From NCBI RefSeq assembly GCF_900637655.1, contig NZ_LR134384.1, positions 496,001 to 560,000 on the forward strand: a stretch of DNA of 64,000 nucleotides, given 5' to 3'. This document shows positions 2,910-57,093 of this stretch, in pieces. The stretch comes from Segatella oris. GTDB taxonomy: Bacteria; Bacteroidota; Bacteroidia; Bacteroidales; Bacteroidaceae. Made by a program: the position numbers and the translations under genes. The notes beneath the pieces were generated by a model, which saw only the letters and a list, made by a program, of their open reading frames with translations, searched no databases and had not been told where the DNA came from. Position 1 is the first letter of the stretch. Every line of letters begins with the position of its first letter.

Positions 2910-3019
2910 TGTCGTCATTTGCATCAAATGGCTGTGTAATCCGCGTCAAGAGGCGTGGTAACTCCATTCACTTTACACGATAAAATGATGCAGATTGTGG
3001 CGTAAAGTGGCTGAAATGG
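2910..3019. repeat. 22-bp phased repeat array A (5 units)
   Basis: Five contiguous 22-nt units begin at 2910, 2932, 2954, 2976 and 2998. At unit positions 11-17 they read TGCATCA, CGCGTCA, CCATTCA, TGATGCA and TGGCTGA, so the TGnnnCA core fades at the edges. A sixth, shifted copy containing TGACGTCA lies just upstream. The array sits in the 700-bp spacer between the convergent M16 peptidase and anti-sigma genes. The rest of that spacer holds an inverted repeat, a 17-bp palindrome and a hairpin (listed separately); I see no gene in it. Confidence 0.75.
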
Positions 3020-3049
3020 CAAACTAAAGGGATAGAAATGGGGGCATCG

Positions 3050-3066
3050 AAGCCATAAAATGGCTT
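3050..3066. repeat. 17-bp palindrome AAGCCAT-AAA-ATGGCTT (copy 1)
   Basis: Perfect 7-bp arms around AAA, 30 nt past array A. The identical 17-mer occurs at 57124-57140 beside array H. Both are followed by a GCATGGAAA block and then TTTCT(A/G)TTTGGTC. Confidence 0.75.
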
Positions 3067-3283
3067 TGCACAAGCATGGAAATGGACTTTTCATTTCTAT
3101 TTGGTCAACTTTTGAAGTGTGGATTTTTAGGATATAAAATTTACAATATTGGGAATAAAGAGCGGTATGATTTCGGCATTTCCTGTGGTTTCTGATGAGG
3201 TTACTCCTATTCCTGTGGAGTTTTGTTCCTTAAGATATAAAGCATAACTTACAACGTATGAAATGGGTTGAAGTCCAAAATCG

Positions 3284-3320
3284 AGAGGGCCTGCGACTCA
3301 TCTTTGAGTCCAGGCCCTCT
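3284..3320 (-). terminator. Strong hairpin, probable terminator of the sigma/anti-sigma operon
   Basis: AGAGGGCCTG (3284-3293) pairs with CAGGCCCTCT (3311-3320), and GACTCA with TGAGTC inside it, leaving a 4-nt loop and one bulge. Read on the minus strand it is followed by a short ATTTT run, 100 nt after the anti-sigma stop codon. It could also act on plus-strand transcripts. Confidence 0.55.
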
Positions 3321-3419
3321 GTCGTTAGTATGTTATGAAAAATTTGAGAGAAATGAAACTTCACAGTTTCGTTTGTTGTTTTAATTAAACATGATTTATA
3401 GAGAAAGCATAGAAATGTT

Positions 3420-3908
3420 CTATTTTAATATGGACTGAGTCGGCGTCTCGACAGCTTCGATACTGCTATGTTGAATGGTATCGATAACGGCGGAGTCGCC
3501 TAAGGCTACCGACTTGCCCTTATGTGTGACGGCATTCATATTACTGCTCGGCACCGTTGAGGCCGAATTGTCTGTCATGGAAACCTGCGCCGCATTGCCC
3601 AATGTGAGCATAATGGCCACGATAGCAGCTGCCTTGAACAGCGGTTTGAGCTTTTGTTGCAGCGTGATGATATGGGCTTTGACCGGCGTAGGTTCATTGA
3701 TGAGAGACAAAATGCGCTCGTCGAAGTCATCACCCAGCACGTCTTTCCTTAGCTCGGCTGTCTGATAGTCGAACAGAGGCTTGTATCTGAGCAGTTCAGC
3801 CGGTATGTCCTTTTGGCTGAAAAAGGCTTTGAGAATTTGTTCTTCTTCAAGAGAAGTCGTGCCTTCCCAATAGCGCTCAAGTAGCTGTGTGATGTATTTA
3901 TAATCCAT
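3420..3908 (-). CDS. Putative anti-sigma factor, single-pass membrane protein
   Basis: 162 aa. The N-terminal soluble part (about residues 1-85, starting MDYKYITQLLERYWEGTTSLEEEQ) resembles the short anti-sigma-like proteins that follow ECF sigma genes in Bacteroidetes. A single hydrophobic segment near residues 90-105 (FKAAAIVAIMLTLG) would anchor it, with a Ser/Thr-rich tail on the far side. Its start codon overlaps the end of the sigma gene by 11 nt, implying translational coupling. No FecR domain is recognisable, so the signal is unknown. The role is inferred mainly from context. Confidence 0.6.
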   Translation of the reverse strand: MDYKYITQLLERYWEGTTSLEEEQILKAFFSQKDIPAELLRYKPLFDYQTAELRKDVLGDDFDERILSLINEPTPVKAHIITLQQKLKPLFKAAAIVAIMLTLGNAAQVSMTDNSASTVPSSNMNAVTHKGKSVALGDSAVIDTIQHSSIEAVETPTQSILK

Positions 3909-4404
3909 AATCTTCTATTTCTTGGAACCTTTGTTTGACGGTCTGACGTGCTCTGTAGATATTGATTTTCACCTGTTCTTCGGTTATCCCGAGCACGTCA
4001 GCGATGTCTTTGTAGCTCTTTCCTTCGAAATCTCTGAGCTGCATGCAGCTTCGTTGTTTCTCCGGAAGACTGTCTACGATTTGCTTTACCACCTTGATAC
4101 GGTCGCGATGGATAATCTCCTCGTAGGGATTATAGGCGCAGTCTGGTGCTGTTTTGTTGTCGAGAGAGTCGTTGTTGTTGCTGAGTTTCTTGACAGCATC
4201 AAGTGCTAAATTGCGGCAAATGGTGAGACTGAAAGCCTCGATGGACTCTATTTCGTTCCAAACTTCGCGTTTATTCCAGACTTTTATCAGTGTTTCCTGC
4301 ACGATGTCTTCGGCTTCTGCGCTGTCAATTGTAATGCGTAGCGCAAGCCGGTAGAGTTTATTCTTCAGCGGCAATACATCGTTTCGAAAGCTGATATTCT
4401 TCAT
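3898..4404 (-). CDS. ECF-type RNA polymerase sigma factor
   Basis: 168 aa, usual length for an ECF sigma. Region 2 is visible as YRLALRITIDSAEAEDIVQE followed by TLIKVWNKR (promoter -10 melting). Region 4 is LPEKQRSCMQLRDFEGKSY with the helix-turn-helix IADVLGITEEQVKINIYRAR. It directs RNA polymerase to a specific regulon and is presumably held by the overlapping downstream membrane protein. No TonB transducer pair lies beside it, so it need not be a PUL sigma. I could not find a TAnnTTTG box immediately upstream, which would fit autoregulation by its own promoter type. Confidence 0.88.
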   Translation of the reverse strand: MKNISFRNDVLPLKNKLYRLALRITIDSAEAEDIVQETLIKVWNKREVWNEIESIEAFSLTICRNLALDAVKKLSNNNDSLDNKTAPDCAYNPYEEIIHRDRIKVVKQIVDSLPEKQRSCMQLRDFEGKSYKDIADVLGITEEQVKINIYRARQTVKQRFQEIEDYGL

Positions 4405-4517
4405 CTGCGCTCTATATTGTTGACGAATTGGAAGTTGATTTGTTACAGAACACTGTTAGTTTTAACCTTCATTAAGAAATATGTATGGGGACTATTCGGT
4501 GTAACTGGGCTTATAAA

Positions 4518-6410
4518 CTATTCAAGATAGGTATATCCATAGAGTCCGGAACGGTAGTTGTTGAGGAATTCCTTGCCTTCTTCAAGCGATATTTTACCGA
4601 GTTTTACGCTCTTGGTAACCCATTGTTCGAGCTGACGTACAAGCTTTTTAGGGTTGTATTGCACGTAGTCGAGCACCTCTTCTACGGTTTCTCCGTCAAA
4701 GATTTGGTCGATATGATACTTCCCATCCCTGACAGATACGTGGGCAGCATTGGTATCTCCGAAAAGATTATGCATGTCGCCGAGAATCTCCTGATAGGCT
4801 CCTATGAGGAAAACACCAAGATAATAGGGTTCATTCTTCTTCAAGGGGTGGAGTGGGAGCACATGCCCCACGTGGCCATCTGTAACGAAATTGGCGATTT
4901 TCCCGTCGCTGTCGCAGGTGATGTCCTGTAGAGTAGCATTGCGTGTTGGTCGTTCTGTGAGTCGCTGTATAGGCATAATCGGGAACAACTGATCGATAGC
5001 CCAGCTGTCAGGAAGACTTTGGAAGAGAGAGAAGTTGCAGAAATATTTGTCGGCAAGTAGCTTATCTAAGCTTCTGAGTTCCTCCGGAATGTGTTTCATT
5101 GTCTTTACCAACGTGTTGATTTCATGGCATACACTCCAGTACATTGCCTCGATTTCAGCCCGCGTCTTCAAGTCAACGATGCCGTGAGAGAATAGCTCAA
5201 GTGCCTCTTCGCGTATCTGTTCGGCATCGTGCCAGTCCTCTAACATCGAACGAGAGTCAAGGTTATCCCAAATCTCGTAAAGGTCTTTGACGAGCTGGTG
5301 ATCGCTTTCTTTGGGCTCAAATGCTTCATTCATTTCTGGAAGACTGGCTGCTTCGAGCACATCAATGACCAAAACGGAGTGGTGAGCTGCCAGACTTCGC
5401 CCACTTTCGGTAATGATATTCGGATGCTGGATATCGTTCTTATCAGCTGCATCTACAAACGTATAAACGCAGTCATTGACGTATTCCTGGATGGAATAGT
5501 TGACAGAACTCTCGCTGCTTGATGAGCGTGTGCCGTCGTAGTCGACGCCAAGTCCACCGCCACAATCAACAAAATCAATGTTATATCCCATTTTGTGGAG
5601 GTTCACATAGAACTGTGCGGCCTCGCGGAGTGCGGTCTGAATGCGGCGGATTTTCGTGATTTGGCTGCCGATATGGAAGTGGATGAGCCGCAGACAATCG
5701 TGCATTCCCATGGCATCGAGTTTCTCTAAAGCCTGCAACAACTCTGCACTGGTGAGGCCAAACTTAGAGGCATCACCCCCACTTTCAGCCCACTTGCCTG
5801 ATCCCGAAGATGCCAATTTGATGCGAATGCCAAGGTTAGGCTTCACATTCAGCTTCTTGGCAGCGCGTGCAATGATGTCTAATTCATTGAGTTTCTCAAC
5901 AACAATGAAGATGCGTTTACCCATTTTCTGGGCCAACAACGCCAGTTCAATGTAGCTTTCGTCCTTATATCCGTTGCAGATAATGAGCGAATCGCTTTTG
6001 CACTGCACGGCAATGACAGCGTGAAGCTCGGGCTTTGAACCGGCTTCAAGACCAAGATTGAATTTCTGTCCGTGGGAGATAATCTCCTCAACCACGGGTT
6101 GCATCTGGTTCACCTTAATGGGATAGATGATAAAGTTCTCGGCTTTGAAGTTGTATTCTGCCTTTGCTTTCTGGAAACAACTAAACGTTTTCTCTATCCG
6201 GTTGTCGAGAATATCAGGGAAACGGAGCAGTACCGGTGCCGTAACATCACGCAAGGCAAGCTCGTCCATGACGTCGCGCAGGTCGATTTGAGTGTTGTCT
6301 TTACAAGGCGTTACATAGACATCCCCATTCTCATTGATGCCAAAATAAGAGGTTCCCCAACCATTAATGTTATAGAGTTCCTTTGAATCGTCAATCGTCC
6401 ACTTTTTCAT
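4518..6410 (-). CDS. speA: Biosynthetic arginine decarboxylase
   Basis: 630 aa, the length of the SpeA family (PLP fold III). The N-terminal INGWGTSYFGINENGDVYV and the PLP-lysine region IIYPIKVNQMQPVVEE are diagnostic. DCGGGLGVDYDGTRSS is the glycine-rich phosphate-binding stretch. It converts arginine to agmatine for polyamine synthesis. It is the last gene of a minus-strand group, 54 nt after aroK. Its C-terminus (residues 400-630) keeps the family's long extension, so it looks intact. Confidence 0.95.
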   Translation of the reverse strand: MKKWTIDDSKELYNINGWGTSYFGINENGDVYVTPCKDNTQIDLRDVMDELALRDVTAPVLLRFPDILDNRIEKTFSCFQKAKAEYNFKAENFIIYPIKVNQMQPVVEEIISHGQKFNLGLEAGSKPELHAVIAVQCKSDSLIICNGYKDESYIELALLAQKMGKRIFIVVEKLNELDIIARAAKKLNVKPNLGIRIKLASSGSGKWAESGGDASKFGLTSAELLQALEKLDAMGMHDCLRLIHFHIGSQITKIRRIQTALREAAQFYVNLHKMGYNIDFVDCGGGLGVDYDGTRSSSSESSVNYSIQEYVNDCVYTFVDAADKNDIQHPNIITESGRSLAAHHSVLVIDVLEAASLPEMNEAFEPKESDHQLVKDLYEIWDNLDSRSMLEDWHDAEQIREEALELFSHGIVDLKTRAEIEAMYWSVCHEINTLVKTMKHIPEELRSLDKLLADKYFCNFSLFQSLPDSWAIDQLFPIMPIQRLTERPTRNATLQDITCDSDGKIANFVTDGHVGHVLPLHPLKKNEPYYLGVFLIGAYQEILGDMHNLFGDTNAAHVSVRDGKYHIDQIFDGETVEEVLDYVQYNPKKLVRQLEQWVTKSVKLGKISLEEGKEFLNNYRSGLYGYTYLE

Positions 6411-6464
6411 TCTCTGTCAAAAAAACGTAATTTTAAGAGTCGTCTGTATCTTTTTGCTGTACTG

Positions 6465-6992
6465 TTAAAGGCACAGCATGTTTCTTAATTGTTCAACTGA
6501 TATTTTAATCTTCTCGTAATCATCCAGCAGGTTGACGTCGAGCACGTGCTTTGCCTTGCTGTAATAAGGCTCACGTTGTGCTAATTGTTCACGTATAAAG
6601 ACCTGCACTTCATCGGCTGTTTTATTCAAGAGGAGAGGTCTTATGGTTTTTCCCATCTTCAAATGTCCGTAGAGAACCTCGGGCGTTGCTTTCAGATAGA
6701 CCGTCTCTCCCTGCCTGTTCATGTAGTCGATATTGTCGAAAAAGCACGGCGTTCCACCGCCACAGCTGATGATAATGTCTTCAAATTCGGCCACCTCATG
6801 CAGCATGTTATGCTCTATTTTGCGAAAACCTGCTTCACCACGTTCATCGAAAATCGCCTTCACAGTCTTGTGCATGCGGCTTTCTATGTACCAATCGAGG
6901 TCATAGAAAGGCATGCGCAGTTCTTTGGCGAGGGCTTTCCCGACAGTTGTTTTGCCGGCACCCATGTATCCGATGAGTATGATTCGCCTCAT
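6465..6992 (-). CDS. aroK: Shikimate kinase
   Basis: 175 aa. The Walker A loop GYMGAGKTTVG is at residues 8-18, DLDWYIE is the Asp/Walker-B shikimate-binding motif, and SCGGGTPCF is the conserved GGG shikimate site. It phosphorylates shikimate in aromatic amino acid synthesis. The ATG directly abuts the stop codon of topA (no intergenic base), so translation is probably coupled. Confidence 0.95.
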   Translation of the reverse strand: MRRIILIGYMGAGKTTVGKALAKELRMPFYDLDWYIESRMHKTVKAIFDERGEAGFRKIEHNMLHEVAEFEDIIISCGGGTPCFFDNIDYMNRQGETVYLKATPEVLYGHLKMGKTIRPLLLNKTADEVQVFIREQLAQREPYYSKAKHVLDVNLLDDYEKIKISVEQLRNMLCL

Positions 6993-9320
6993 TTACTTCC
7001 TTTTCCTACCTTTCGGTTCGGGTGCATTGTTCACGATTTCCATACATTCTGCGTAGCTCAGTTCGGCTGCTTTCTCGTGTAAAGCCTTTGGCATGCGGTA
7101 GTTCTTACCGTCATATGCGATGTAAGGGCCATAGCGACCGTTGAGCACTTCGAGTTTAGCGTCCTCGTCGAAAGCCTTGATATGTCGCTTCTGTTCCTGT
7201 TCGCGCTTTTCTCCAATGAGTTGAATGGCCTCTTCAAGTGTTACTTTCATGGGGTCAGTTCCCTTGGGGAGAGACACATATTTCTTGTTATGCATCACGT
7301 AAGGACCAAAGCGTCCGGCACCGATTACTACGTCGCTGCCTTCAAATTCGCCGATAGTGCGCGGCAGTTTGAATAGTTCCAAGGCCTCTTCGAGCGTTAT
7401 TGTCTCAATGCTTTTGTCGCTCGGGAGCTGTGAAAAGCGCGGTTTTTCCGTGTCATCTGCAGACCCAATCTGAACTACCGGGCCAAATCTTCCGATCTTA
7501 ACAAACACAGGTTTGCCTGTCTCGGGCTCTTTTCCGAGTTGTCGTTCGCCTGCTTTGTGCTCCGAACGGGCGTTCATCACCTTGTCAACCGTAGGCTCAA
7601 AGCTCTTGTCGAAGACTTTCATCATCGTGTTCCACTCCTCTTTTCCTTCGGCAATCCGGTCGAACTGCTGCTCTACTTTGGCTGTAAAGTTGTAGTCCAT
7701 GATATCAGGGAAGTTGGCCATCAGAAAGTCATTGACGACTATTCCGATATCCGTTGGCAGCAGTTTTCCCTTTTCACTGCCCACCATCTCCTTGCGTTCG
7801 CGGCTCGTTACTTTCGTTCCTTTCAGCGTATCGACAGTATATGTGCGCTCTTCTCCCTTTTTATCGCCCTTCTGAACATACTCACGTTGCTGTATCGTCG
7901 ATATAGTTGGAGCATAGGTTGACGGACGTCCGATGCCCAATTCTTCGAGTTTATGTACCAAACTGGCTTCCGTGTAGCGGATTGGACCCATGCTGAAGCG
8001 TTCTGTGGAAGTGATTTCGCGGCGTTCAAGCACATTACCCACCTGCATTACCGGCAGCATGTGCGTAGCTTCTTCCTGGTTGTTGTCGTCTTCATCGGTT
8101 GATTCGCGGTACACTTTCAGGAAGCCATCGAAGGTAACTACCTCACCGTTGGCAATGAACTTGGCCTGACTGCCGGCGATATCTATGGTTACCGTGGTCT
8201 TGTCAATCAGCGCATCAGCCATCTGACTGGCTGCTGTTCGCTTCCATATCAGTTCATAAAGCCGCTTCTCCTGTGCTGTTCCGTCAATCTCTGTTTGGCT
8301 CATAAAGGTCGGACGGATAGCTTCATGCGCTTCCTGTGCACCCTTTGCATGCGTGTGATAGTTGCGGGTTTTGCTGTATTCCTTGCCCCAAAGCTTGATA
8401 ATCTCATCCTTGCTGGTGTTGATTGCCAATGAAGAAAGGTTCACAGAGTCGGTTCGCATGTAGGTGATACGGCCGCTTTCATAAAGGCGTTGCGCCACCA
8501 TCATCGTCTGGCTGACGGTGAACCCCAACTTCCTTGCAGCCTCTTGCTGCAGTGTAGAGGTGGTAAAAGGAGGCGCAGGTGTGCGGCGAAGCGGCTTCTT
8601 TGTAATGTTACTTACGGTGAATTTGGCATCCTTGCACTGCTCAAGAAAGGCAACAGCCTCTCCATGAGTCTTGAAACGAGTGTCCAATTCGGCCTTTACT
8701 TCGCTCTGACTTCCGTCAGCATTGGTGATGCCGAACAGTGCATTGACACGGTAATAAGGTTCGCTATGGAAAGCTTGTATCTCGCGTTCGCGTTCAACAA
8801 TGAGTCTGACAGCCACGCTTTGTACGCGACCTGCGCTCAACGCGGGCTTCACTTTACGCCATAAAACAGGGGAAAGTTTAAAGCCGACTAAACGGTCGAG
8901 AACGCGTCGTGCCTGCTGAGCATTCACCAAATCCATATTCAAATGACGGGGTGATTTGATAGCATCAAGAATGGCAGATTTCGTGATTTCATGGAACACA
9001 ATGCGGTTTGTCTTTGCCTCATCAAGCCCCAACACCTCGCAAAGGTGCCATGAAATAGCTTCTCCCTCGCGGTCTTCATCGGAAGCCAACCATATCTTTT
9101 TCGCTTTCTTGGCATTCGACTTGAGTTCAGAAACCAGTTTTTTCTTCTCGTCAGGAATCTCATAATCCGGTTCCAAAGTCTTTGGATCAATACTCAGTTC
9201 CTTTTTCTTCAGGTCACGAATGTGTCCGTATGATGACATCACTTTGTAGTCCTCGCCCAGAAACTTCTCAATAGTTTTGGCCTTTGCCGGGCTTTCTACG
9301 ATAACTAAATTCTCTTGCAT
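6993..9320 (-). CDS. topA: DNA topoisomerase I
   Basis: 775 aa type IA topoisomerase. The N-terminal TOPRIM domain shows LVIVESPAKAKTIEKFLG, with the DEDREGEAISWH acidic triad. The catalytic Tyr is in GRITYMRTDSVN (around residue 290). Instead of zinc fingers the C-terminus has three glycine-rich repeats of the TOPRIM_C_rpt type (GRFGPVVQIG, GRFGPYVMHNKKYVSLP, GRYGPYIAYDGKNYRMP), as usual in Bacteroidetes, ending in a basic tail. It relaxes negative supercoils. It is the first gene of the topA-aroK-speA group, with a -7 box 30 nt upstream. Confidence 0.96.
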   Translation of the reverse strand: MQENLVIVESPAKAKTIEKFLGEDYKVMSSYGHIRDLKKKELSIDPKTLEPDYEIPDEKKKLVSELKSNAKKAKKIWLASDEDREGEAISWHLCEVLGLDEAKTNRIVFHEITKSAILDAIKSPRHLNMDLVNAQQARRVLDRLVGFKLSPVLWRKVKPALSAGRVQSVAVRLIVEREREIQAFHSEPYYRVNALFGITNADGSQSEVKAELDTRFKTHGEAVAFLEQCKDAKFTVSNITKKPLRRTPAPPFTTSTLQQEAARKLGFTVSQTMMVAQRLYESGRITYMRTDSVNLSSLAINTSKDEIIKLWGKEYSKTRNYHTHAKGAQEAHEAIRPTFMSQTEIDGTAQEKRLYELIWKRTAASQMADALIDKTTVTIDIAGSQAKFIANGEVVTFDGFLKVYRESTDEDDNNQEEATHMLPVMQVGNVLERREITSTERFSMGPIRYTEASLVHKLEELGIGRPSTYAPTISTIQQREYVQKGDKKGEERTYTVDTLKGTKVTSRERKEMVGSEKGKLLPTDIGIVVNDFLMANFPDIMDYNFTAKVEQQFDRIAEGKEEWNTMMKVFDKSFEPTVDKVMNARSEHKAGERQLGKEPETGKPVFVKIGRFGPVVQIGSADDTEKPRFSQLPSDKSIETITLEEALELFKLPRTIGEFEGSDVVIGAGRFGPYVMHNKKYVSLPKGTDPMKVTLEEAIQLIGEKREQEQKRHIKAFDEDAKLEVLNGRYGPYIAYDGKNYRMPKALHEKAAELSYAECMEIVNNAPEPKGRKRK

Positions 9321-9349
9321 ACTCCTTTATGAACATTTATTCAAGGGCG

Positions 9350-9357
9350 CAAAAATA
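9350..9357 (-). promoter_or_regulatory. -7 box of the topA-aroK-speA promoter
   Basis: The minus strand reads TATTTTTG, 30 nt before the topA ATG. Confidence 0.55.
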
Positions 9358-9521
9358 ATGAAAACTTTCACGTTACACCTTATTATATGGTGTTTTTTCT
9401 GTTTTTTTAAGAAATGGTTTGTATCTATCTGATAGATGAGAAGCATCAGAAAGCGTACCATGGTTATGGTATTTTCTTATCTTTTACGATGTTTTTTCAT
9501 ATGATTTCCAATTGTATTCAC

Positions 9522-9529
9522 TATATTTG
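9522..9529 (+). promoter_or_regulatory. -7 box of the YkgB-like gene promoter
   Basis: TATATTTG, perfect TAnnTTTG, about 75 nt upstream of the ATG at 9606. Confidence 0.6.
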
Positions 9530-9605
9530 CAACGCTATTTCGGATGTCATCATTGTGATATAGCAATTTAAAATAGGATTATTAACGAAATAAACTTTAT
9601 TGAAA

Positions 9606-10187: not shown

Positions 10188-10332
10188 ACGGGCTTAGTGC
10201 AATGATGCACAGCCTGTTCTTGGGAATGGAAAAGGTAAGCAGGAGCACCCGTTTACAATATCCATCATCGGCATGATAAGTGCTCCCGACAGGTCATGTA
10301 AATCATGTCAAATTCCAACGACTGTTCAGGGG

Positions 10333-10420
10333 CGTTGCAATATGGGTCATTTTACGCGCTCATATGACGCATATTACACGATGAAATGGGTCAAATTGCA
10401 CGCTCATATGACGCAAGTTA
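10333..10420. repeat. 22-bp phased repeat array B (4 units, 44-bp higher-order repeat)
   Basis: Units start at 10333, 10355, 10377 and 10399. Cores alternate TGGGTCA, TGACGCA, TGGGTCA, TGACGCA, so the array is also a 44-bp tandem duplication (GGGTCA at 10344 and 10388). Flanks on both sides contain CAACG, TGTTCA and TTCAGGGGCGTT blocks. It lies in the 427-bp spacer between two convergent genes. The only other structure I see there is the hairpin at 10535. Confidence 0.85.
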
Positions 10421-10534
10421 CAACGCTTGTTCATGTGGATATTCAGGGGCGTTTGACTAAGAGCAACTAACTCCTTGATGTACAATGGATTGCTACTCGT
10501 ATGAATTCGGGGCTTATTTCCATTGACAACGAAT

Positions 10535-13426: not shown

Positions 13427-13430
13427 CATG

Positions 13431-16236: not shown

Positions 16237-16346
16237 TTTCCCCTTTTGCGTCAAAACAACATGCCATTTGCACCAGAAAGCATTGGCATCTGCATCACTT
16301 TGCGGTGTGATTTGATGCAAATGACATCGTGATTTGACGCAAGTGG
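16237..16346. repeat. 22-bp phased repeat array C (5 units)
   Basis: Units start at 16237, 16259, 16281, 16303 and 16325. Their cores at unit positions 11-17 are TGCGTCA, TGCACCA, TGCATCA, TGATGCA and TGACGCA: five of five fit TGnnnCA in perfect register. The spacer (15836-16708) otherwise holds a TTTTCTATTTGGTC segment in reverse (16153-16168) and the CGCGTATT inverted repeat at 16437; no gene is supported in it. Confidence 0.88.
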
Positions 16347-16436
16347 CATTCCTGTTGTACGTTATTTTGCGGTCTGTTTTCTTGCTTTTTGTATAACTAT
16401 TTGATAATTAATGATTTATAAAGTCGTTGAAAACTG

Positions 16437-16479
16437 CGCGTATTTCGAACAAAGTGGTTTGGTGTTTCAAATACGCGAG
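16437..16479. repeat. Inverted repeat of the CGCGTATT element (copy 2)
   Basis: CGCGTATTTCGAA (16437-16449) faces AAATACGCGAG (16469-16479). The right arm continues into TTATGCGAAGGCTTTTGTTAA, which matches the minus strand of 2763-2785 with few differences. Confidence 0.6.
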
Positions 16480-16708
16480 TTATGCGAAGGCTTTTGTTAA
16501 GTAAATTCAGAAAAGTTAAAAATGCAGTCCAAAGAGGTGTTTTTGGAAGAAAACTTCTTTGGAGTGACGAAATCGGGAAACGGAGCAGGAAATGTAAGAG
16601 GTTACAAACGGCAGACTGTGTGTAGCGGCGAGAACTTGCTTTCTGCCTCTGCCGATATCGGTAAAAAGGGTGAAAAGGAACGGTTGGAAAAGCAGTAAGA
16701 CCTCTGAT

Positions 16709-25827: not shown

Positions 25828-25915
25828 GGCTATGATTTCATGCAAATTGTACGATGAAATGGCGCAAATTGCGCGATGAAATGGTACAAATCACACGATA
25901 AAATGACCTAAATCA
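25828..25915. repeat. 22-bp phased repeat array D (3-4 units) inside PUL 1
   Basis: Three clear units start at 25850, 25872 and 25894, sharing (C/T)(A/G)CGAT(G/A)AAATG followed by a CAAAT or TAAAT block. The cores are TGGCGCA, TGGTACA and TGACCTA. A weaker unit begins at 25828. It is the most uniform array in the window. It lies between susD and the SusE/F gene, ending 45 nt before the latter's ATG. Confidence 0.88.
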
Positions 25916-25960
25916 CTTCACTACTTCACTAAGAAATAAAAACAACTAAACTTTTGTGAT

Positions 25961-32570: not shown

Positions 32571-32633
32571 TGCATTTCTGAGCCAACCGTGTAAAAACTT
32601 GATTTATAAGGACTTACAATCTCATTCATTTCA

Positions 32634-32743
32634 ATGAATGATTTGCGTCATTATACACGATAATCTCTGTCATATTGCGCGGTAAAATGAATGGAATTAC
32701 AACGCAATCTGACTGATATTAGAACGTAGCATGTAAGTTGTTG
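32634..32743. repeat. 22-bp phased repeat array E (5 units)
   Basis: Units start at 32634, 32656, 32678, 32700 and 32722. Their cores are TGCGTCA, TCTGTCA, TGAATGG, TGACTGA and TGTAAGT: good register but more decay than arrays B, C and G. It lies between PUL 1 and the convergent PanE-like gene; the rest of this 380-bp spacer holds only the terminator. Confidence 0.7.
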
Positions 32744-39936: not shown

Positions 39937-40069
39937 GAGGGTAATATGCAGCAAATTGCATGGTGTTTTGATATGGAATTGCCTCGCAATTTGCGTCATT
40001 TCATCGTGCAATCTGTATCAACATGCGTAGTCAAATGGTGCAGATGATGAAGTAAAGTGAAAGGAATGG
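39937..40069. repeat. 22-bp phased repeat array F (6 units)
   Basis: Units start at 39937, 39959 (23 nt), 39982, 40004, 40026 and 40048. The cores include TGCAGCA, TGCGTCA, TGTATCA and TGGTGCA. CAATTTGCGTC plus ATTTCATCGTG (39987-40008) is the exact reverse complement of the consensus of arrays B and D, so this array runs opposite to them. It lies in the 560-bp spacer between the second PfkB kinase and the GH2 gene. Confidence 0.82.
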
Positions 40070-49380: not shown

Positions 49381-49597
49381 GCATATTAGGGCATAATGGA
49401 ATGGTAAAATTGTTCAAAAGAATTACAAATTTGTACAAAAGCATGTATTTATTTGAATTTTATGGAATAATGCCTAAAGTTCAGGAGCAAAGCGGTTTCT
49501 TCGGAGTTGCCATATGTTTCATGCCTTTTAAAAGTTGATACAGCCAATAGGAACTTTTTGATGAACATCCCTGAAGCTTGACTGGAGACTCATGATG

Positions 49598-49729
49598 AAC
49601 TGCAATCTGTATTATTTCACATTGTGATTTGCATCAAGTTACGTTGTAATATGACGCAGATTGCAGCGTAAAGTGAGTCAAGTTACAATGTGATTCGCGT
49701 CAAGTTACAGCGTCATTTGATGCATGTTG
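49598..49729. repeat. 22-bp phased repeat array G (5-6 units)
   Basis: Units start at 49598 (weak), 49620, 49642, 49664, 49686 and 49708, with no break in register. The five strong cores are TGCATCA, TGACGCA, TGAGTCA, CGCGTCA and TGATGCA; four of the five end in a CA(A/G)(G/A)TT-type block. It sits in the 620-bp spacer between the divergent susC and pyrophosphatase genes. Apart from the two promoters I see nothing else in that spacer. Confidence 0.88.
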
Positions 49730-49874
49730 CTATTCAGTTTGTTTTAAGATGTGCTGAGGCTTCAATCTTTTCCGGGCTTATTTATACTCCATTAGATTGC
49801 TGTTGAGCCCGTGTTTGAAGGATTACTTTATGGTTAAATAACTTTAAAAGCGAACAACCAAAGACTTATCTTCG

Positions 49875-49927: not shown

Positions 49928-52132
49928 ATGATGAACATCCCTACCGTTTTTTGGCTTGTACCATTGGCTTCGGCAGTGGCATTAGGCATGGCATGGTATT
50001 TCTTCTCGTCGATGATGAAAGAAGAAGAAGGTACATTGAAGATGAAAGAGATTGCCGAACATGTCCGAAAAGGTGCAATGGCCTATCTTCGGCAACAATA
50101 TAAGGTTGTCGGTATCGTCTTCATAGTGCTTGCTTTGGTCTTTGCTTTCATGGCATATGCCTTGAAAATCCAGAACCCTTGGGTTCCCGTAGCTTTCTTG
50201 ACAGGCGGTTTCTTCTCCGGACTCTCGGGCTTTTTCGGCATGAAAACAGCCACTTATGCCTCCGGTCGCACAGCAAATGCAGCCCGACAGGGCTTGGACA
50301 GAGGTTTGAAGGTAGCTTTTCGAAGTGGTGCCGTCATGGGACTTGTGGTTGTTGGATTAGGACTTTTAGACATTGCGATTTGGTTCTTCATCCTCAGCAG
50401 CGTATATCAAGAGGGTAATATGGCCTTGATAACCATCACGACAACTATGCTTACATTTGGTATGGGCGCTTCTACGCAGGCGCTGTTTGCCCGTGTAGGC
50501 GGTGGCATCTATACCAAAGCTGCCGATGTGGGCGCCGACCTTGTGGGCAAGGTTGAGGCTGATATCCCCGAAGATGACCAGCGAAATCCGGCTACTATTG
50601 CTGATAATGTGGGCGATAATGTGGGCGACGTGGCCGGTATGGGTGCCGACTTGTATGAGAGCTACTGCGGAAGTATCCTCTCAACAGCAGCACTTGGTGC
50701 CACAGCCTTTGCTCTGAACGGCGACATGCAGTTGCGAGCTGTCATCGCTCCGATGATTATTGCAGCCGTAGGTATATTCCTTTCGCTCATCGGTATCTTC
50801 CTTGTCCGCACGAAAGAAGGGGCTACAATGAAAGAACTGCTCCATGCCTTGGGACTCGGAACGAATGTAAGTGCGGTGCTGATAGCCATAGCTTCTTTCA
50901 TCATTCTCTATCTTTTAGGCATTGAAAACTGGCTCGGACTGTCGTTTTCTGTCATCAGCGGACTCGTGGCAGGCGTCATCATCGGGCAGGCAACAGAGTA
51001 TTATACCTCGCAAAGCTACCGCCCAACGCAGAAGATTGCAGCATCGAGCCAGACCGGTTCGGCTACAGTTATCATCAAAGGTCTTGGCACGGGTATGATT
51101 TCCACGTGCATTCCAGTGCTCGTTATCTCTGTCGCAATCCTGCTGAGTTACCTTTGTGCCAATGGTTTCGACATGAGCATGCAGGCCAATTCGATTAGTC
51201 ATGGCCTCTATGGTATCGGTATTGCTGCGGTCGGAATGCTCTCTACGTTAGGCATTACGCTTGCAACCGACGCTTATGGGCCTATTGCCGACAATGCAGG
51301 AGGCAATGCCGAGATGAGCGAATTGGGCGAGGAGGTGAGGCATCGTACTGATGCTCTCGATGCCTTGGGCAACACAACAGCTGCTACGGGCAAGGGATTT
51401 GCTATCGGAAGTGCGGCATTGACAGCCTTAGCTTTATTGGCTTCATATGTTGAAGAGATAAAGATTGCCATGGCACGTGCCGTGGAAGAAGGTCGTCATT
51501 TCATGGATGCAGCAGGACAAACCTTTGATCCTTCGAAGGCAACAATGCCCGATTTCATGGACTTTTTCCAAGTAACGCTGATGAATCCCAAGGTGCTTGT
51601 AGGCGCTTTCATCGGTGCAATGGCAGCATTCCTCTTCTGTGGTTTGACGATGGGTGCAGTCGGACGGGCTGCTCAGTCAATGGTAGAAGAGGTGAGAAGA
51701 CAGTTCAAGGAAATCAAAGGAATACTTGAAGGTAAGGCCACACCTGACTATGGTCGCTGCGTGGAAATATCCACTCGGAGTGCTCAAAGAGAGATGATTA
51801 TACCGAGTCTGCTGGCAATTGCTATCCCGATTGTTGTCGGAGTAGTGCTCGGGGTGGCTGGTGTTCTGGGCTTGTTGGTAGGTAGTTTGTCGGCCGGTTT
51901 TACGTTGGCAGTGTTCATGGCGAATGCCGGTGGCGCATGGGACAATGCGAAGAAGATGGTCGAAGAGGGCAACTTCGGGGGCAAAGGCTCTGCAAGTCAC
52001 AAGGCAACTATCGTCGGTGACACTGTCGGTGACCCTTTTAAAGACACCTCCGGGCCAAGTCTTAACATCCTTATCAAGCTGATGTCAATGGTAAGTATTG
52101 TCATGGCAGGGCTCACCGTGGCCTTTATTTAA
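49928..52132 (+). CDS. hppA: Membrane-bound ion-pumping pyrophosphatase
   Basis: 734 aa with about 16 transmembrane segments. The substrate loops [20 protein letters not shown] and [20 protein letters not shown] bind Mg-PPi. The motif [20 protein letters not shown] has Ala where K+-independent members carry Lys, so it is probably K+-dependent, the class that pumps Na+ (in some Bacteroides also H+). It couples PPi hydrolysis to ion export. The second of two ATGs (49931) is an equally possible start. The gene is followed by a hairpin at 52191 and is not part of PUL 2. Confidence 0.93.
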
Positions 52133-52190
52133 GGCCCCTTTCTATTACTTAATGTATAGAAAAATCTGATTTGTATCGCTGATTTGCGAG

Positions 52191-52219
52191 TTTTCGGTGA
52201 CTATTCAAGCCACCGAAAA
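52191..52219 (+). terminator. Hairpin after the pyrophosphatase gene
   Basis: TTTTCGGTG (52191-52199) pairs perfectly with CACCGAAAA (52211-52219), 60 nt past the stop codon. Confidence 0.55.
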
Positions 52220-52343
52220 CGATTAACAACAATTATCATTTGCACTTTCAAATTAAGAACGAAGTCACAAAAGCAATGCACTTTGGCTGCCAAAACATTT
52301 GAAAAAAAACAGAAAAGAACCTGTTTTTTCACAGTATTTTATA

Positions 52344-52351
52344 TATCTTTG
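52344..52351 (+). promoter_or_regulatory. -7 box of the M48 peptidase / DUF1266 unit
   Basis: TATCTTTG, 37 nt before the ATG at 52389. It lies inside the longer frame from 52299, ruling that start out. Confidence 0.6.
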
Positions 52352-52388
52352 TATCATTATTTATACTTTTAAGACACATAATTATTTT

Positions 52389-53237
52389 ATGAAAAAAACA
52401 CTATCACACATGCTTGTAGCTGCTTTCTGCATGCTGAGTACAACGCCGGCAATGGCGCAGTTTAATCTTGGAAAAGCTGTTGGAGGGGCTGCAAAGGCTG
52501 TAAAAGCTGCCACACTGACCGACGCTGATGTCGCAAACTACGTGAAAGAGTACATTACTTGGATGGACCAACACAATCAGGTTTGTGCCGACAACAACCC
52601 TTATGCCATTCGTTTGAAGAAGCTTACAGAGGGTTTGACCAATGTTGAAGGCATTCCATTGAACTTCAAGGTCTATTATGTTACCGACGTTAATGCATTT
52701 GCTTGTGCCGATGGTAGCGTGCGTGTATTCTCTTCTTTAATGGACATCATGACTGATGATGAACTCCTTGGCGTCATCGGTCACGAGATCGGACACGTTG
52801 CCCACAAGGATTCTAAGAACGCATTCCGTACAGCTTTGCTCACTTCTGCACTGAAAGACGGTGTTTCTTCAACGAATGGTAAGGCTGCAGCGCTTACTGA
52901 TTCACAGTTCGGAGAGCTTGGAGAAGCATTGCTGAATGCCACTTATTCACAGAAACAAGAGAGCAATGCAGATGCTTACGGCTATGAGTTCTTGAAGAAG
53001 AACGGTAAGAACCCTTGGGCAATAGCCTTGTCGTTTGAGAAGCTGAAGAAGTTAGAAGAGGACGCAGGTTACCAGAAAGACAGCAAGTGGAAACGCATGT
53101 TCTCTTCTCATCCCGACCTTGACAAGCGCATCAAGACCATGAGTGAGCGGGCAAAGAAAGACGGATTTGAACGTCCGGAGAATAAGATGCCTGAAAAACC
53201 AGCTGTAAAGGTTGTTGCAAAAGGAAAGAAAAAATAA
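52389..53237 (+). CDS. Secreted M48-family zinc metallopeptidase
   Basis: 282 aa from the ATG at 52389. A signal peptide (MKKTLSHMLVAAFCM..., ending PAMAQ) precedes the catalytic domain. HEIGHVAHKD at residues 132-141 is the HExxH zinc motif, and QESNADAYGYEFL gives the third ligand Glu. It resembles the periplasmic BepA/LoiP branch, which degrades misassembled outer-membrane proteins, but lacks visible TPRs. Two DUF1266 proteins follow at 27 nt and further, probably in one transcript. Confidence 0.9.
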   Translation: MKKTLSHMLVAAFCMLSTTPAMAQFNLGKAVGGAAKAVKAATLTDADVANYVKEYITWMDQHNQVCADNNPYAIRLKKLTEGLTNVEGIPLNFKVYYVTDVNAFACADGSVRVFSSLMDIMTDDELLGVIGHEIGHVAHKDSKNAFRTALLTSALKDGVSSTNGKAAALTDSQFGELGEALLNATYSQKQESNADAYGYEFLKKNGKNPWAIALSFEKLKKLEEDAGYQKDSKWKRMFSSHPDLDKRIKTMSERAKKDGFERPENKMPEKPAVKVVAKGKKK

Positions 53238-53264
53238 GATAACCCAATTGTTAAAAATATTTAT

Positions 53265-54170
53265 ATGAAAAAGAAAACAACGATGCTCCTTATGTTCATG
53301 TTGTGCTTCGTGGCTCAACAGGCATCGGCTTTTCGTATCAAAGCAAGAGTACCGAGTAGTTCGGAAGGTAGTACAGACTATTCATCATTGATAAGTACAG
53401 TCGTAATTTGCGGAATCATTCTTTATATTGTATTAAAGAATTGGTCAAAGATTAGAATATTGTTCCGCGGTATTGCTTCCGGTGCTCGTATGGAAAAGAA
53501 TACGGACTTGACAGAAGATCAGCAGCGAAAACTGCTTTTAAGTGGTGTCTTCTCTGCGCAGAAAGCTACTTTGTTTAATGTAGTCAAGACAGGAATGGAT
53601 AGCAACGAGCGCGATAAAATGTTCACTCAGGGTTGGGGTATAACTGATAAAGCATCAGCAATTGATACACTTGATTATCTGAGACTCTCTGGTACACGTC
53701 GCTATTTCCCACAGGTTGTTGAGTCTTTGAAACTCAAAAACAAGCAGGAAATACAGCAGTATATCAACGATACCTTTGAGAATGAAGAAGATATGCGCAA
53801 TTGTTGGGAGCAGGTTCAGTATGCTTTCGAGTCTATGGAGCCTCTGATGAAGGAGCAAATCATCAAGGACGAGAACGACTTTGTACGTATTGGTCCGGAT
53901 GCATGGGACGCTGGTCGACTCGTTTTCATGGCCAGATTGTGTCGTGAGCATAATTATATCACTGATGAACAACTATGGCAATACATTGATGCTGCTGACG
54001 AGATTGCTCACCGCACACTTACCAATTGGGAAGATTTCGGCAAGAGTTACATCATAGGTCGTTGCCTATGGTGTGGCACGGCCAACTATTTTGAGGTAAT
54101 GGCAGGCCATGCCAAGAAGATGTACACCAACACGAAGAGTCCTTGGAAGACTTTCCCTTTCGCGAAATAA
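53265..54170 (+). CDS. DUF1266 membrane protein, first of a tandem pair
   Basis: 301 aa. An N-terminal signal-like segment (LLMFMLCFVAQQASA) and a second hydrophobic helix (STVVICGIILYIVLKNW, about 45-62) precede a soluble domain. The C-terminal part has the DUF1266 pattern: DAWDAGRLVFMARLCREHNY, ITDEQLWQYIDAADEIAH, NWEDFGKSYIIGRCLW. The family function is unknown. It starts 27 nt after the M48 gene; the paralogue follows beyond a hairpin. Confidence 0.8.
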   Translation: MKKKTTMLLMFMLCFVAQQASAFRIKARVPSSSEGSTDYSSLISTVVICGIILYIVLKNWSKIRILFRGIASGARMEKNTDLTEDQQRKLLLSGVFSAQKATLFNVVKTGMDSNERDKMFTQGWGITDKASAIDTLDYLRLSGTRRYFPQVVESLKLKNKQEIQQYINDTFENEEDMRNCWEQVQYAFESMEPLMKEQIIKDENDFVRIGPDAWDAGRLVFMARLCREHNYITDEQLWQYIDAADEIAHRTLTNWEDFGKSYIIGRCLWCGTANYFEVMAGHAKKMYTNTKSPWKTFPFAK

Positions 54171-54203
54171 GCACGTATTGAATAAAAGAAACCTTTGAAT
54201 AAT

Positions 54204-54235
54204 CCTTGTCGGCCGTAAGTAAATGGCTGACAAGG
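54204..54235 (+). terminator. Hairpin between the two DUF1266 genes
   Basis: CCTTGTCGGCC (54204-54214) pairs with GGCTGACAAGG (54225-54235) with one G-U pair. No T-run follows; it may reduce read-through or protect the upstream message. Confidence 0.55.
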
Positions 54236-54275
54236 AAACTTAAAAACTGAATTCTAAACAAGAGAAATAAGTTCT

Positions 54276-55184
54276 ATGAAAAAGAAAATCATCTTCTGTT
54301 TGATAGCGATGTTAGGCTTGTTTTCACAGCAAGCATTTGCCCTGAGATTTCGTGTCAGGGTGCCCAGTGGGTCATCCGAAAGTTCCAACGGAGTTGTTAC
54401 ATGGATTGTCTATGCTGTAATCGCAGTGGTTGTTGCCGTCACCCTTTACCGCTACTTCTTTAAGATCAGGGGCTTTCTCCGCCAGTTTAAGGGAGATTTC
54501 CTAATGGATGAGAACTCTTCTTTAAGTAAGGAACAACAGCGAAAGATGCTGTTGGGTGCCGTATATGCAGTGATTGATAAAGGCTATCTGAATACCATTA
54601 AGACGGGACTTGAAAAGGAAGAGCGCGAAGATAGGCTGGAAAAAGACTGGAACATCTGTACGCATGACTCTGCTGTAGATGCTTTAAACGGGCTGAAAAT
54701 TGCGTGCACGAAAGACTATTCCCCTAATATCGGTGAGGCATTCAAGCTGAAAGAGCAGAAAGCCATAGAGAAATATCTCCGTGAAACCTTTGTAAATCCA
54801 AACGATGCAAAGGCATGTGCTAAGCAGATTGAACGTGCTTTCAAACATATCGGCAATCTTGTCAAAGAGGGAATTGTAAGGGATGAGGCCGAGTTTTCAC
54901 GTATCGGTGGTGTTGCGTTTGAAGCTACCCGCTTAGTAGCCATTGCCCGCATGTGTGCAGAATCGAAGTATATCAGCGAGCAGGAGATGTGGGAATACGT
55001 TGATTTCGCCGATGAACAGGCCCACAAGTCACTCATTTCCTGGGAGGATTACGGCAAGAGTTATGTCATCGGTGATTGCCTCTGGGGTGCCGACAGCTAT
55101 GATTTGGGCCAGAGTTCTAAGATTATAAGAAAGCTCATCAATGACCCGAAGAGTCCTTGGAAGTTATTCCCTTTTGAGAAATAA
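54276..55184 (+). CDS. DUF1266 membrane protein, second of a tandem pair
   Basis: 302 aa, the same architecture as the previous gene: signal-like start (LIAMLGLFSQQAFALRFRVR), membrane helix (VTWIVYAVIAVVVAVTLYRY), linker and a DUF1266 core (EATRLVAIARMCAESKYISE, EMWEYVDFADEQAHKSLISW, DYGKSYVIGDCLW). Both end PFAK/PFEK after a SPWK motif. Identity is obvious by eye but the middle has diverged, so this is an old duplication. Function unknown. Confidence 0.8.
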   Translation: MKKKIIFCLIAMLGLFSQQAFALRFRVRVPSGSSESSNGVVTWIVYAVIAVVVAVTLYRYFFKIRGFLRQFKGDFLMDENSSLSKEQQRKMLLGAVYAVIDKGYLNTIKTGLEKEEREDRLEKDWNICTHDSAVDALNGLKIACTKDYSPNIGEAFKLKEQKAIEKYLRETFVNPNDAKACAKQIERAFKHIGNLVKEGIVRDEAEFSRIGGVAFEATRLVAIARMCAESKYISEQEMWEYVDFADEQAHKSLISWEDYGKSYVIGDCLWGADSYDLGQSSKIIRKLINDPKSPWKLFPFEK

Positions 55185-55206
55185 GTATGTTTCCAAACTG
55201 TTTTGA

Positions 55207-55243
55207 TAGGTAGGAAAGTCTGTAATATGAGGCTTTCCACCTA
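55207..55243 (+). terminator. Terminator after the DUF1266 pair
   Basis: TAGGTAGGAAAG pairs with CTTTCCACCTA (one bulged base), then TTATTT, 22 nt after the stop codon. Confidence 0.6.
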
Positions 55244-55364
55244 TTATTTAAAGCTATCATTTGTTGGTTTCCCTGTTATATGCCGGAGTATATACCCCCT
55301 GCAAATGATGTACGGCAATAGCCAAAATTTCCTCGTTTCATTGCCGTATGTTCTGCAAATATCG

Positions 55365-55372
55365 TATATTTG
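55365..55372 (+). promoter_or_regulatory. -7 box of the pncB promoter
   Basis: TATATTTG, 24 nt before the ATG at 55396. Confidence 0.6.
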
Positions 55373-55395
55373 CAAGTAAAAGAGAAAAATAAACA

Positions 55396-56595
55396 ATGAA
55401 ACAAATCATCAATCACTTCACCGATGACGACCTTTACAAGCTTTCCATGTGCTGTGCTGTCATTGATAACTATCCTCGTGCACAGGTAAAGTATCAGTTT
55501 GTCGACCGCAACGACACGGTATATCCCGAGGGCTTTGCCGATGAATTGCACCGTCAGATCGAAGCTTTGGAGGGCGTAGTCATCACCGATGAAGAGATCG
55601 ACTTCATGAAGCGACGCTGCAGTTACATGCCACATTGGTTCTTTACCTATCTCCGTGGCTACCGTTTTTCACGTGATTGGGTGAAGACATGGCAGGATGA
55701 AGCGGGACATCTTCACGTGGAGTTTGAGGGCAGTTGGTCGGACACTATCCTCTTAGAGGTAAAGGTTTTGGCCATCATCTCCGAGCTTTTCTACATGATG
55801 ACGGGGCAAACGGCGAAGCTTGATTACAAGAGTTTGTATGACAAGACATGCCATAAAGCCGAACGATTGTTGGCAGCCGGCTGCGTATTCTCTGATTTCG
55901 GAACACGTCGTCGCGCTTCGTTTGAGGCAGAAGACACCGTGGTAAGTGCACTGAAAGATACTGCACAGCATTGCAAATGGCCTGGAAGACTTGTCGGAAC
56001 AAGCAATGTATATATCGCCATGACCCACGATCTGCAGCCTGTGGGCACTATGGCTCATGAGTTTGTCTGCGCTATCGGTGGCATGTTTGGGCCTCAAATG
56101 GCCAATCACTTGGCAATGAATGCGTGGCGAAACACGTTTCGCGGTGCTCTCGGAACCTATCTCTACGACTCTTTCGGCTGGGATATCTTCTCACTGAACT
56201 TTTCAGAAGACTTCGCCAATCTGTTCAAAGGACTGCGCATCGACTCGGGAGATAACCATGAACAACTGTTGAAAATCGTTGAAAAATACCGCTCACTCGG
56301 TATTGACTCGCGGTCGAAACAAGTGGTGTTCTCTAATGCCTTGGACACTGATACGGCTGTCGAAATCCAGCAATATGCCCAACATCTCTGCATGCCTTCA
56401 TTCGGAATAGGCACGCATTTCACTAATGATTTCGAAGGAATAGAGCCCATGAACATCGTCATCAAGCTTGTTGCATCGAAGATAACAGAGTGTTGGCCTT
56501 ACTATAATGACACGTGTAAGCTGTCAGAAGATCAGGGGAAGCATACCGGGAAGCCCGAAGTGATCAGACGATTCATGGAGGCTTTGCATATGTAA
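55396..56595 (+). CDS. pncB: Nicotinate phosphoribosyltransferase
   Basis: 399 aa, full length for PncB. FTDDDLYKLSMCCAVID is the N-terminal signature. FSDFGTRRRASFEAED, GTSNVYIAMTHDLQPVGTMAHEF and GLRIDSGDN are the PRPP/nicotinate-binding blocks, including the His that is phosphorylated in family members (ATP-coupled turnover). It makes nicotinate mononucleotide for NAD salvage in the cytoplasm. It is a single-gene unit with its own promoter. Confidence 0.95.
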   Translation: MKQIINHFTDDDLYKLSMCCAVIDNYPRAQVKYQFVDRNDTVYPEGFADELHRQIEALEGVVITDEEIDFMKRRCSYMPHWFFTYLRGYRFSRDWVKTWQDEAGHLHVEFEGSWSDTILLEVKVLAIISELFYMMTGQTAKLDYKSLYDKTCHKAERLLAAGCVFSDFGTRRRASFEAEDTVVSALKDTAQHCKWPGRLVGTSNVYIAMTHDLQPVGTMAHEFVCAIGGMFGPQMANHLAMNAWRNTFRGALGTYLYDSFGWDIFSLNFSEDFANLFKGLRIDSGDNHEQLLKIVEKYRSLGIDSRSKQVVFSNALDTDTAVEIQQYAQHLCMPSFGIGTHFTNDFEGIEPMNIVIKLVASKITECWPYYNDTCKLSEDQGKHTGKPEVIRRFMEALHM

Positions 56596-56620
56596 AGTTA
56601 CCCACCCCCGCCCCCGCCCC

Positions 56621-57000
56621 AAGGGAGGGGAGAGCGAACTGAGGGCAATACACGCAGGATTTTATATTCCTTACTTCACATATTCAACAACAACGCCTTT
56701 TTGTTTACAAGGGAGAGGAGGATGAACTGAAAGCAATTCATGCAGGATTTTTATATTCCTTACTTCACATATTCAACAACAACGCCTTTTTGTTTCCAAG
56801 GGAGGGGAGAGCGAACAGAGGGCAATCCATGCAGGATTTTATATTCCTTACTTCACACACTCAACAACAACGCCTTCCTGTTTCCAAGGGAGGGGAGAGC
56901 GAACTGAGGGCATTCCATGTGAGCCTTCACATCATTTACTTCTCATATTCAACAAACAATGCCTCCTGTTTCCAAGGGAAGAGAAGCTGCTTCGTGAGTA
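56621..57000. repeat. 88-bp imperfect tandem repeat (4 copies plus a partial)
   Basis: Copies begin with AAGGGAG... at 56621, 56709, 56798, 56886 and 56974 (spacings 88, 89, 88, 88). Each contains a GGAGAG...GAAC block, a CAGGATTTTATATTCC block and TTCAACAA(C)AACGCCT. Copies 1-3 are closest; copy 4 has diverged. A C-rich run (CCACCCCCGCCCCC) precedes them. It begins 25 bp after the pncB stop codon. The remaining spacer up to 57461 holds array H and hairpins, but no gene I can support. Confidence 0.85.
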
Positions 57001-57004
57001 TTGA

Positions 57005-57093
57005 TATGGTAAAATGAATGGATTAGCAGACTGAAGTCACATTGAACCACCTTGTAACTTGCATCAGATTATCGTATAACTTGACGCAGATTG
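57005..57093. repeat. 22-bp phased repeat array H (2 clear, 2 weak units)
   Basis: Clear units start at 57050 and 57072 with cores TGCATCA and TGACGCA. A unit at 57005 shares GGTAAAATGAATGGA with array E; the unit between it and 57050 is degenerate, and the register slips by one base. It follows the 88-bp repeats and precedes the 17-bp palindrome copy 2. Confidence 0.65.

Follow-up and report, generated by a model that had tools for sequence, protein, structure and literature searches.

Phased rows of 22-bp sites in the intergenic spacers of Segatella oris: candidate targets of a lineage-variable binding protein, carried by a dispersed element

The intergenic spacers of Segatella oris carry a family of arrays built from units of 22 bp, which we analyzed starting from a 64-kb stretch of the chromosome, hereafter the window (C1:496001-560000 of a single-contig genome of 3,168,212 bases), and then across samples of the genome and its relatives. 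The existence of this array family is near certain. Our best explanation as a whole—that the arrays are phased rows of sites for a predicted DNA-binding protein whose specificity varies between lineages, and that these rows are carried by a dispersed element—stands at about even odds (probability roughly 0.5) on the sequence patterns described below. Of its parts, selection acting on phased sites at the DNA level appears probable, and a binding protein with specificity differing between lineages is about as likely to exist as not.

The 22-bp period is the dominant regularity of non-coding DNA in the window. In its 29 spacers (7,713 bp), lag 22 was the top autocorrelation lag (z 11.0), accompanied by harmonics at lag 44 (z 7.2) and lag 66 (z 6.2), whereas coding DNA had almost no signal at lag 22 (0.253 vs 0.246). 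For detection we used a cyclic 22-bp profile whose training units came from the window and from fetched loci; at a score of at least 30 it detected exactly eight arrays in the window, with 35 called units in total. The original prediction, drawn from the letters of the window, had described eight non-coding array sites with 35-40 units, a TGnnnCA core and a spacing held more tightly than the unit sequence, and had proposed lag-22 autocorrelation as a check. All eight sites were recovered and the unit count fell at the low end of the predicted range; the non-coding character was also supported. The predicted positions needed some correction: array 1 in fact begins near 2840, the array at 39938 slips by one base and the one at 57049 keeps only two units in register. 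The TGnnnCA core does recur in phase but is only the centre of a longer unit of 19-22 bp.

A set of 404 called units from 89 arrays of S. oris was used to characterize register, divergence and orientation. Among 315 unit-to-unit steps, 299 measured 22 bp, nine measured 44 bp and seven took other values (one of them 23), and 399 of the 404 units were distinct, so that spacing is indeed conserved beyond sequence. Adjacent units were 55.3% identical, compared to 51.6% between arrays (permutation standard deviation 0.55 points, z 6.6), and conserved positions alternate along the unit with nearly free ones. A young tandem repeat is not favoured, as neighbours are barely more alike than units from different arrays; the units share a consensus rather than recent descent, with a small trace of duplication. 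A mixture model allowing both orientations gave the consensus GYAATYTGCRTCAnWTYAC for S. oris and KCAATMTCASCCATWTTRC for Segatella maculosa DSM 19339 (G315), the closest named relative identified, with an H+-pyrophosphatase 92% identical to that of S. oris, and assigned a clear orientation to 94% of units. Cores of both forms, TGACGCA and TGCGTCA, are therefore seen, as units lie in two orientations. Their order tends to be convergent—left-hand units mostly point rightward and right-hand units leftward—with z 8.0 over the 89 arrays of S. oris and z 4.7 over 19 arrays of S. maculosa, with some unidirectional or mixed arrays as exceptions.

To estimate the number of arrays, we scanned 464 kb, made up of the window and 20 stretches of 20 kb placed systematically, and found 50 arrays at a score of at least 30; one dinucleotide-shuffled copy of the same 464 kb yielded none at a score of at least 25. 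The 400 kb of systematic samples hold 42 of these 50 arrays, which extrapolates to approximately 330 per genome, or about one per 9 kb, with a median array length of 113 bp. At a score of at least 25, 49 of 51 arrays were intergenic (23 in tandem, 18 in convergent and eight in divergent spacers), the other two lying close to stretch edges. Arrays occupied 46 of the 73 spacers of at least 300 bp, including 18 of 25 convergent ones. This distribution bears on the idea that the units are conventional transcription-factor operators at promoters: oriented, near-palindromic and phased sites would suit such a function, but with 18 of 49 arrays in convergent and only eight in divergent spacers, and with distances to start codons that vary widely, we consider it very improbable.

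The abundance of arrays in convergent spacers would also be expected if each array were transcribed or extruded as one long hairpin, serving as a terminator, an RNase III substrate or a cruciform, with 22 bp equal to two turns of A-form RNA. Array sequences do fold better than shuffled controls (mean z -3.0 in S. oris and -4.6 in S. maculosa), as they fold back on themselves because the unit order is convergent. Swapping halves between arrays, however, did not weaken folding (change of -0.12 +/- 0.77 kcal/mol in S. oris and +2.57 +/- 2.22 kcal/mol in S. maculosa), and nested partner units in S. oris were about as complementary as units drawn from separate arrays (0.704 vs 0.696, z 0.8). The corresponding values in S. 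maculosa (0.779 vs 0.749, z 1.4) come from a small set of 24 pairs and lean towards pairing. Neither test supports a whole-array hairpin, and little or no covariation between arm pairs speaks against a hairpin within the unit. Searches against Rfam at the gathering threshold, for tRNAs and against a plasmid collection returned no match. We therefore regard folding as an improbable function of the arrays, whose pattern appears more consistent with protein-binding sites than with hairpins or with a young tandem repeat.

The period extends to relatives in which the units themselves differ. A BLAST search with one S. oris array found no match in 39 relatives (23 of them in the genus), and a five-unit consensus matched 11 of 398 genus genomes at 1e-3, S. 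oris included. Spacing in related genomes had been named beforehand as a test, and lag 22 was raised in all seven genus relatives sampled (z 3.1 to 9.1); G301, G001, G315 and G347 had been picked for consensus matches, G003, G010 and G023 had not. The predicted two-turn period thus recurs with other unit sequences. We pooled 551 spacers from 80 H+-pyrophosphatase loci and from seven sampled genomes, of which two were outgroups; a strong local period was present in 75, compared to five after shuffling; the best period was 22 in 32 of these, 21 in 10 (some of which look coding-like), 44 in five, 11 in four and any other value in at most three. Split by taxon, in a spacer set that overlaps the 551, period 22 was best in 34 of 463 genus spacers (20/333 and 14/130) and in none of 127 outgroup spacers (0/84 and 0/43). 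No clear array was seen in 22 kb at the Segatella copri and Hoylesella oralis loci. Other periods were also observed: 21-bp arrays of near-palindromic units in further relatives (L175:12362, L201:9031 and L194:7351), which may be the same system with 10.5 bp to the helical turn, and 11-bp direct repeats at half the usual period (L170:15548, L175:14927 and L177:8097).

Motifs for the relatives were trained de novo from self-similar segments with no symmetry imposed, leaving out rows that drifted to AT-rich sequence (G010, G023 and part of G003). Seven of the eight trained motifs were near-palindromic and one (G023) was not; those of G001, G010, G012, G023 and G301 rest on two to four arrays each. 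In cross-scans, the motifs of S. oris, S. maculosa and G001 find one another's arrays (the S. maculosa motif recovers 24 arrays of S. oris), G003, G010 and G012 partly cross-detect, and G301 and most of G023 stand alone; outgroups and shuffled sequences gave no arrays. Motifs trained without a given sequence still detect arrays in groups of relatives. Moreover, in the pooled relatives without S. oris and S. maculosa (G001 included), the frame GYAA-N11-TTRC occurred 49 times on the 22-bp lattice vs 20.6, and TTRC-N3-GYAA 52 times vs 19. Off the lattice, the 10-bp palindrome GYAA-N2-TTRC was counted 79 times in the relatives' pooled spacers vs 21 expected.

S. maculosa illustrates this combination of constant frame and altered sequence. 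Its 20 arrays in 200 kb have a consensus of their own, which shares a common frame with that of S. oris. Of the 19 unit positions, 8-11 and 14 account for most of the difference, and base frequencies shift to a lesser degree at others. In one pair of arrays that is orthologous by sequence (window 32596-32728 vs L160:9030-9138), which scores 42 where the best of 18 controls scores 35, the frame is kept and the central bases differ. As a separate observation, a 6.5-kb segment (genome 701862-708383; L129:1862-8383) is 97% identical to S. maculosa, vs 79-83% for other blocks from the same search, and looks like a recent transfer.

Many arrays are embedded in a larger element. A 123-bp tail directly adjoins the array at 29 of 30 fetched tail loci, and a leader of approximately 135 bp or more lies opposite the tail side of the same arrays, with flank identities of 0.41-0.44 vs 0.26-0.28 in offset controls. 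Of 53 arrays in the 464 kb, 10 carry leader and tail—co-oriented in all 10 cases—seven the leader only, three the tail only and 33 neither (E 0.01); two of 19 leader matches have no adjoining array. The presence of leader and/or tail at 20 of 53 arrays makes the array part of a dispersed composite element. Strong matches to either flank were confined to S. oris among the sequences scanned, the best ones elsewhere reaching E 0.014 for the tail and E 0.008 for the leader (L216). At both element ends (window 2746 and 3148) we also observed GTTAA with TTTACA some 15 nt further along, in the same direction, which could be a duplication or a shared signal; locus-specific duplication of these ends gave within-locus values of 0.495 vs 0.426, with only six of 29 loci comparable.

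The order leader-array-tail is that of BrickBuilt, a miniature inverted-repeat transposable element (MITE) with a 23-nt minisatellite, present in 19 copies in Porphyromonas gingivalis (PMC4596501), and it therefore strengthens a mobile-element reading: that the arrays descend from a decayed or selfish, non-autonomous leader-repeat-tail element that spread and diverged, with no cellular function for the array (which may serve the mobilizing protein). The restriction of strong leader and tail matches to S. oris among the sequences scanned, their shared orientation wherever both occur, the patchy distribution of own-type units among relatives, the near-identical tandem units in some of them and the frequent position of arrays at synteny breakpoints (see below) all agree with such an origin. 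Neutral decay, however, should destroy a consensus in strict register, and units are barely more alike within arrays than between them; convergent unit order and the 33 arrays with neither flank likewise speak against this reading. Nor was the IS5-like terminal inverted repeat of BrickBuilt type, GAGACCTTTGCA, found at any array of the window with up to two mismatches; its 11 matches in the window, vs 6.2 expected, were reached in nine of 100 shuffles and so do not exceed chance. We consider this origin without cellular function possible but rather unlikely; if true, it would define a large BrickBuilt-like family with an internal repeat in unusually strict 22-bp register.

A further mobile-element candidate is provided by palindromes of the repetitive extragenic palindrome/bacterial interspersed mosaic element (REP/BIME) type, spread by an IS200-like, REP-associated tyrosine transposase (RAYT). 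A Y1/IS200-type transposase gene (genome 624052-624579; L125:4052-4579) lies between two arrays, and palindromic repeats occur between some close arrays. These palindromes, however, differ in sequence and look inserted between array parts, and the divergence of the units together with the absent covariation is unlike copied stem-loops, so that a REP/BIME origin is highly unlikely. Short palindrome clusters of this kind (at L126:3200-4200 and beside the Y1 transposase gene) separate some close array pairs, as if inserted.

Arrays coincide with breaks in gene order. Along 120 kb compared with S. maculosa (19 arrays, 49 testable gene junctions), gene-level breakpoints fell in nine of nine array spacers and in four of 40 array-less ones, with the caveat that draft-contig ends may mimic breaks. 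Restricting the comparison to spacers of at least 250 bp left nine of nine vs one of five (Fisher p 0.005), and at block level the counts were 13 of 15 vs five of 13. These tests exclude short, secondary or recently transferred matches (C29, C34, C6, C29:10710 and C4:163205). The longest array-free gap, at 846-902 kb (L136-L138), has a low guanine-cytosine content of 41% and encodes two integrases and a Mob relaxase; an 8-kb part of it is 94% identical to S. maculosa, other blocks being 70-84% identical except for one 369-bp match. Arrays occupy none of the 16 long spacers in this island vs 48 of 95, a contrast that is not independent, as the island was picked for lacking arrays.

Drawing these patterns together, we propose that each array is a row of about four to six oriented 22-bp sites placed two helical turns apart, which would all face one side of the DNA because of that spacing, with left sites tending to point right and right sites left. 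A sequence-specific protein of these bacteria may assemble along each row, forming a complex that is roughly symmetrical, and we infer that one such protein could serve all arrays of a genome. The dimeric form and the cooperative binding put forward in the original prediction stay hypothetical. The rows would form the core of a dispersed element of leader, array and tail, many copies of which may now be bare arrays, and would occupy long spacers where gene blocks meet, commonly at intervals of 5-10 kb. Should the specificity of the protein differ by lineage and the arrays follow it, geometry would be conserved and sequence would not. The most likely job is perhaps structural—a border, an insulator, a roadblock between transcription units or a nucleoid anchor—but border or insulation function in particular is a tentative proposal that we judge doubtful.

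Several findings weigh against this explanation or parts of it. No candidate binding protein was found among the open reading frames between closely spaced arrays, which include the Y1 transposase and housekeeping-like genes. The leader and tail point to spread as an element, and the slight excess of identity between adjacent units, together with nearly identical units within some arrays of relatives, means that duplication also acts. Own-type units do not track YchF identity, being absent from the scanned stretches of G012 (94%), G023 (92%) and G003 (89%) and present in G001 (81%), a pattern that requires some horizontal exchange or retention. In some genomes two or more unit families coexist, and at many loci no array is seen. 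Outgroups show a weak lag-22 excess (z 2.3 and 3.2). Among six S. maculosa comparisons matched by position, a single pair has clearly orthologous sequence; of the other five, one (57049) equals the best control and four are ordinary. Conservation of array positions, for which several sides match, is therefore not claimed, also because about half of the long spacers carry an array anyway. Gene order is collinear around two arrays (genome 597546 and 606197), so an array does not always mark a breakpoint. Spacing cuts both ways: in favour of the proposal, 33 of 52 inter-array intervals in a contiguous 464 kb measured 5-10 kb, compared to 28-32% under random spacer placement (0 of 5,000 draws), in a range picked after the data were seen; the overall coefficient of variation (0.93) was no lower than under random placement, and the value of 0.53 vs 0.78 for the dense part concerns a part that was also picked post hoc. 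Regular spacing over the whole stretch is thus unsupported, and the 5-10 kb hump alone remains.

A more far-reaching version of the proposal would be a chromosomal border system of Prevotella-type bacteria: in each lineage, a fast-evolving predicted DNA-binding protein and hundreds of convergent 22-bp rows, recoded in concert when specificity shifts, would mark the gene-block borders where chromosomes break and rejoin—a bacterial counterpart of convergent insulator sites with lineage 'dialects', perhaps domesticated from a BrickBuilt-like element. We offer it as a speculative and, on present indications, unlikely scenario. Should our main explanation hold, it would reveal a level of chromosome organization, abundant and as yet without a name, in a large and important group of gut and oral bacteria, with hundreds of sites co-evolving with one protein, and a testable reason for the shuffled gene order between S. 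oris and S. maculosa. Array DNA would provide a ready bait for the predicted protein.

The eight arrays of the window, none of which has a strand assigned as a whole, differ in unit number and flanks. Array 1 (2840..3021) has six called units (orientation >>>><<), preceded by a leader on the plus strand (2746..2871; nhmmer E 2.4e-20) and followed by a plus-strand tail of approximately 123 bp (3027..3148; nhmmer E 1.5e-25) that contains AAGCCAT-AAA-ATGGCTT; both flanks were placed by alignment. Array 2 (10332..10426; four units, ><<<) adjoins a weak leader match on the minus strand (10468..10532; E 0.008), and array 3 (16237..16350; five units, >>><<) has a minus-strand leader (16389..16519; E 1.6e-17). 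Array 4 (25828..25916; four units, <<<<) lies 44 bp ahead of a SusE/F-type gene, and array 5 (32596..32728; four units, >><<) aligns in register with its S. maculosa counterpart. The four units of array 6 (39938..40060) include one 45-bp step, the one-base slip, and array 7 (49587..49730; six units, >><<><) occupies the divergent spacer upstream of the H+-pyrophosphatase gene. Array 8 (57049..57101; two units, ><) is followed by a plus-strand tail (57101..57247) whose two overlapping matches represent an internal duplication. Shortly ahead of it, at 56619-56979, an 88-bp direct repeat occurs in about four copies with 84% matches; 88 is 4 x 22, and the repeat is by eye unlike the array unit. 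A single 23-bp stretch in the window, at 8937, scored 23 with the profile.

Unit orientation and convergence, lineage-specific units, the composite element and the coincidence with breakpoints go beyond the original prediction, which had pointed to no named family of this form. A named element, BrickBuilt, comes close in layout. BrickBuilt (PMC4596501) shares with our arrays the Bacteroidales host, the intergenic location, imperfect tandem units that span about two turns of the helix and a limited host range, besides a leader-array-tail layout in which one or both flanks are missing from many copies. The arrays described here differ from it in unit length (22 bp vs 23 nt) and copy number (hundreds, by extrapolation, vs 19), in being oriented and convergent, in a divergence within arrays that nearly equals that between them, in that no such terminal repeat was found at the arrays of the window, and in a period common to relatives with other unit sequences. 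The same source mentions that tandem repeats of 22, 23 and 41 nt had been reported in P. gingivalis W83, and BrickBuilt is cited in a resequencing paper (PMC5771137). REP elements have been surveyed (PMC3733652). REP/BIME elements with their RAYT transposases resemble the arrays in their many intergenic palindromic copies, species-specific families and inverted orientations, and differ in that the arrays, in which no compensatory stem changes were found, form a continuous 22-bp lattice with no linkers.

In the open-access literature searched, we found no description of this array family in Prevotella-type bacteria. Among systems of phased protein sites, the iterons of plasmid origins are 22-bp direct repeats placed in rows at the origin, beside a rep gene. 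The arrays share with them the phased rows of 22-bp sites, here for a predicted protein, and depart from them in being convergent, with few unidirectional examples, and in occurring at hundreds of sites; none of the 19 window genes scanned with Pfam was named a replication initiator. MatS, Noc and SlmA sites are dispersed, near-palindromic single sites of conserved sequence; the arrays are likewise dispersed and near-palindromic and may likewise serve one predicted protein, but they are rows and their sequence is lineage-specific. On the features tested, the family has the layout of BrickBuilt, differs from it in unit length and terminal repeat, and is distinct from both REP/BIME elements and iterons.

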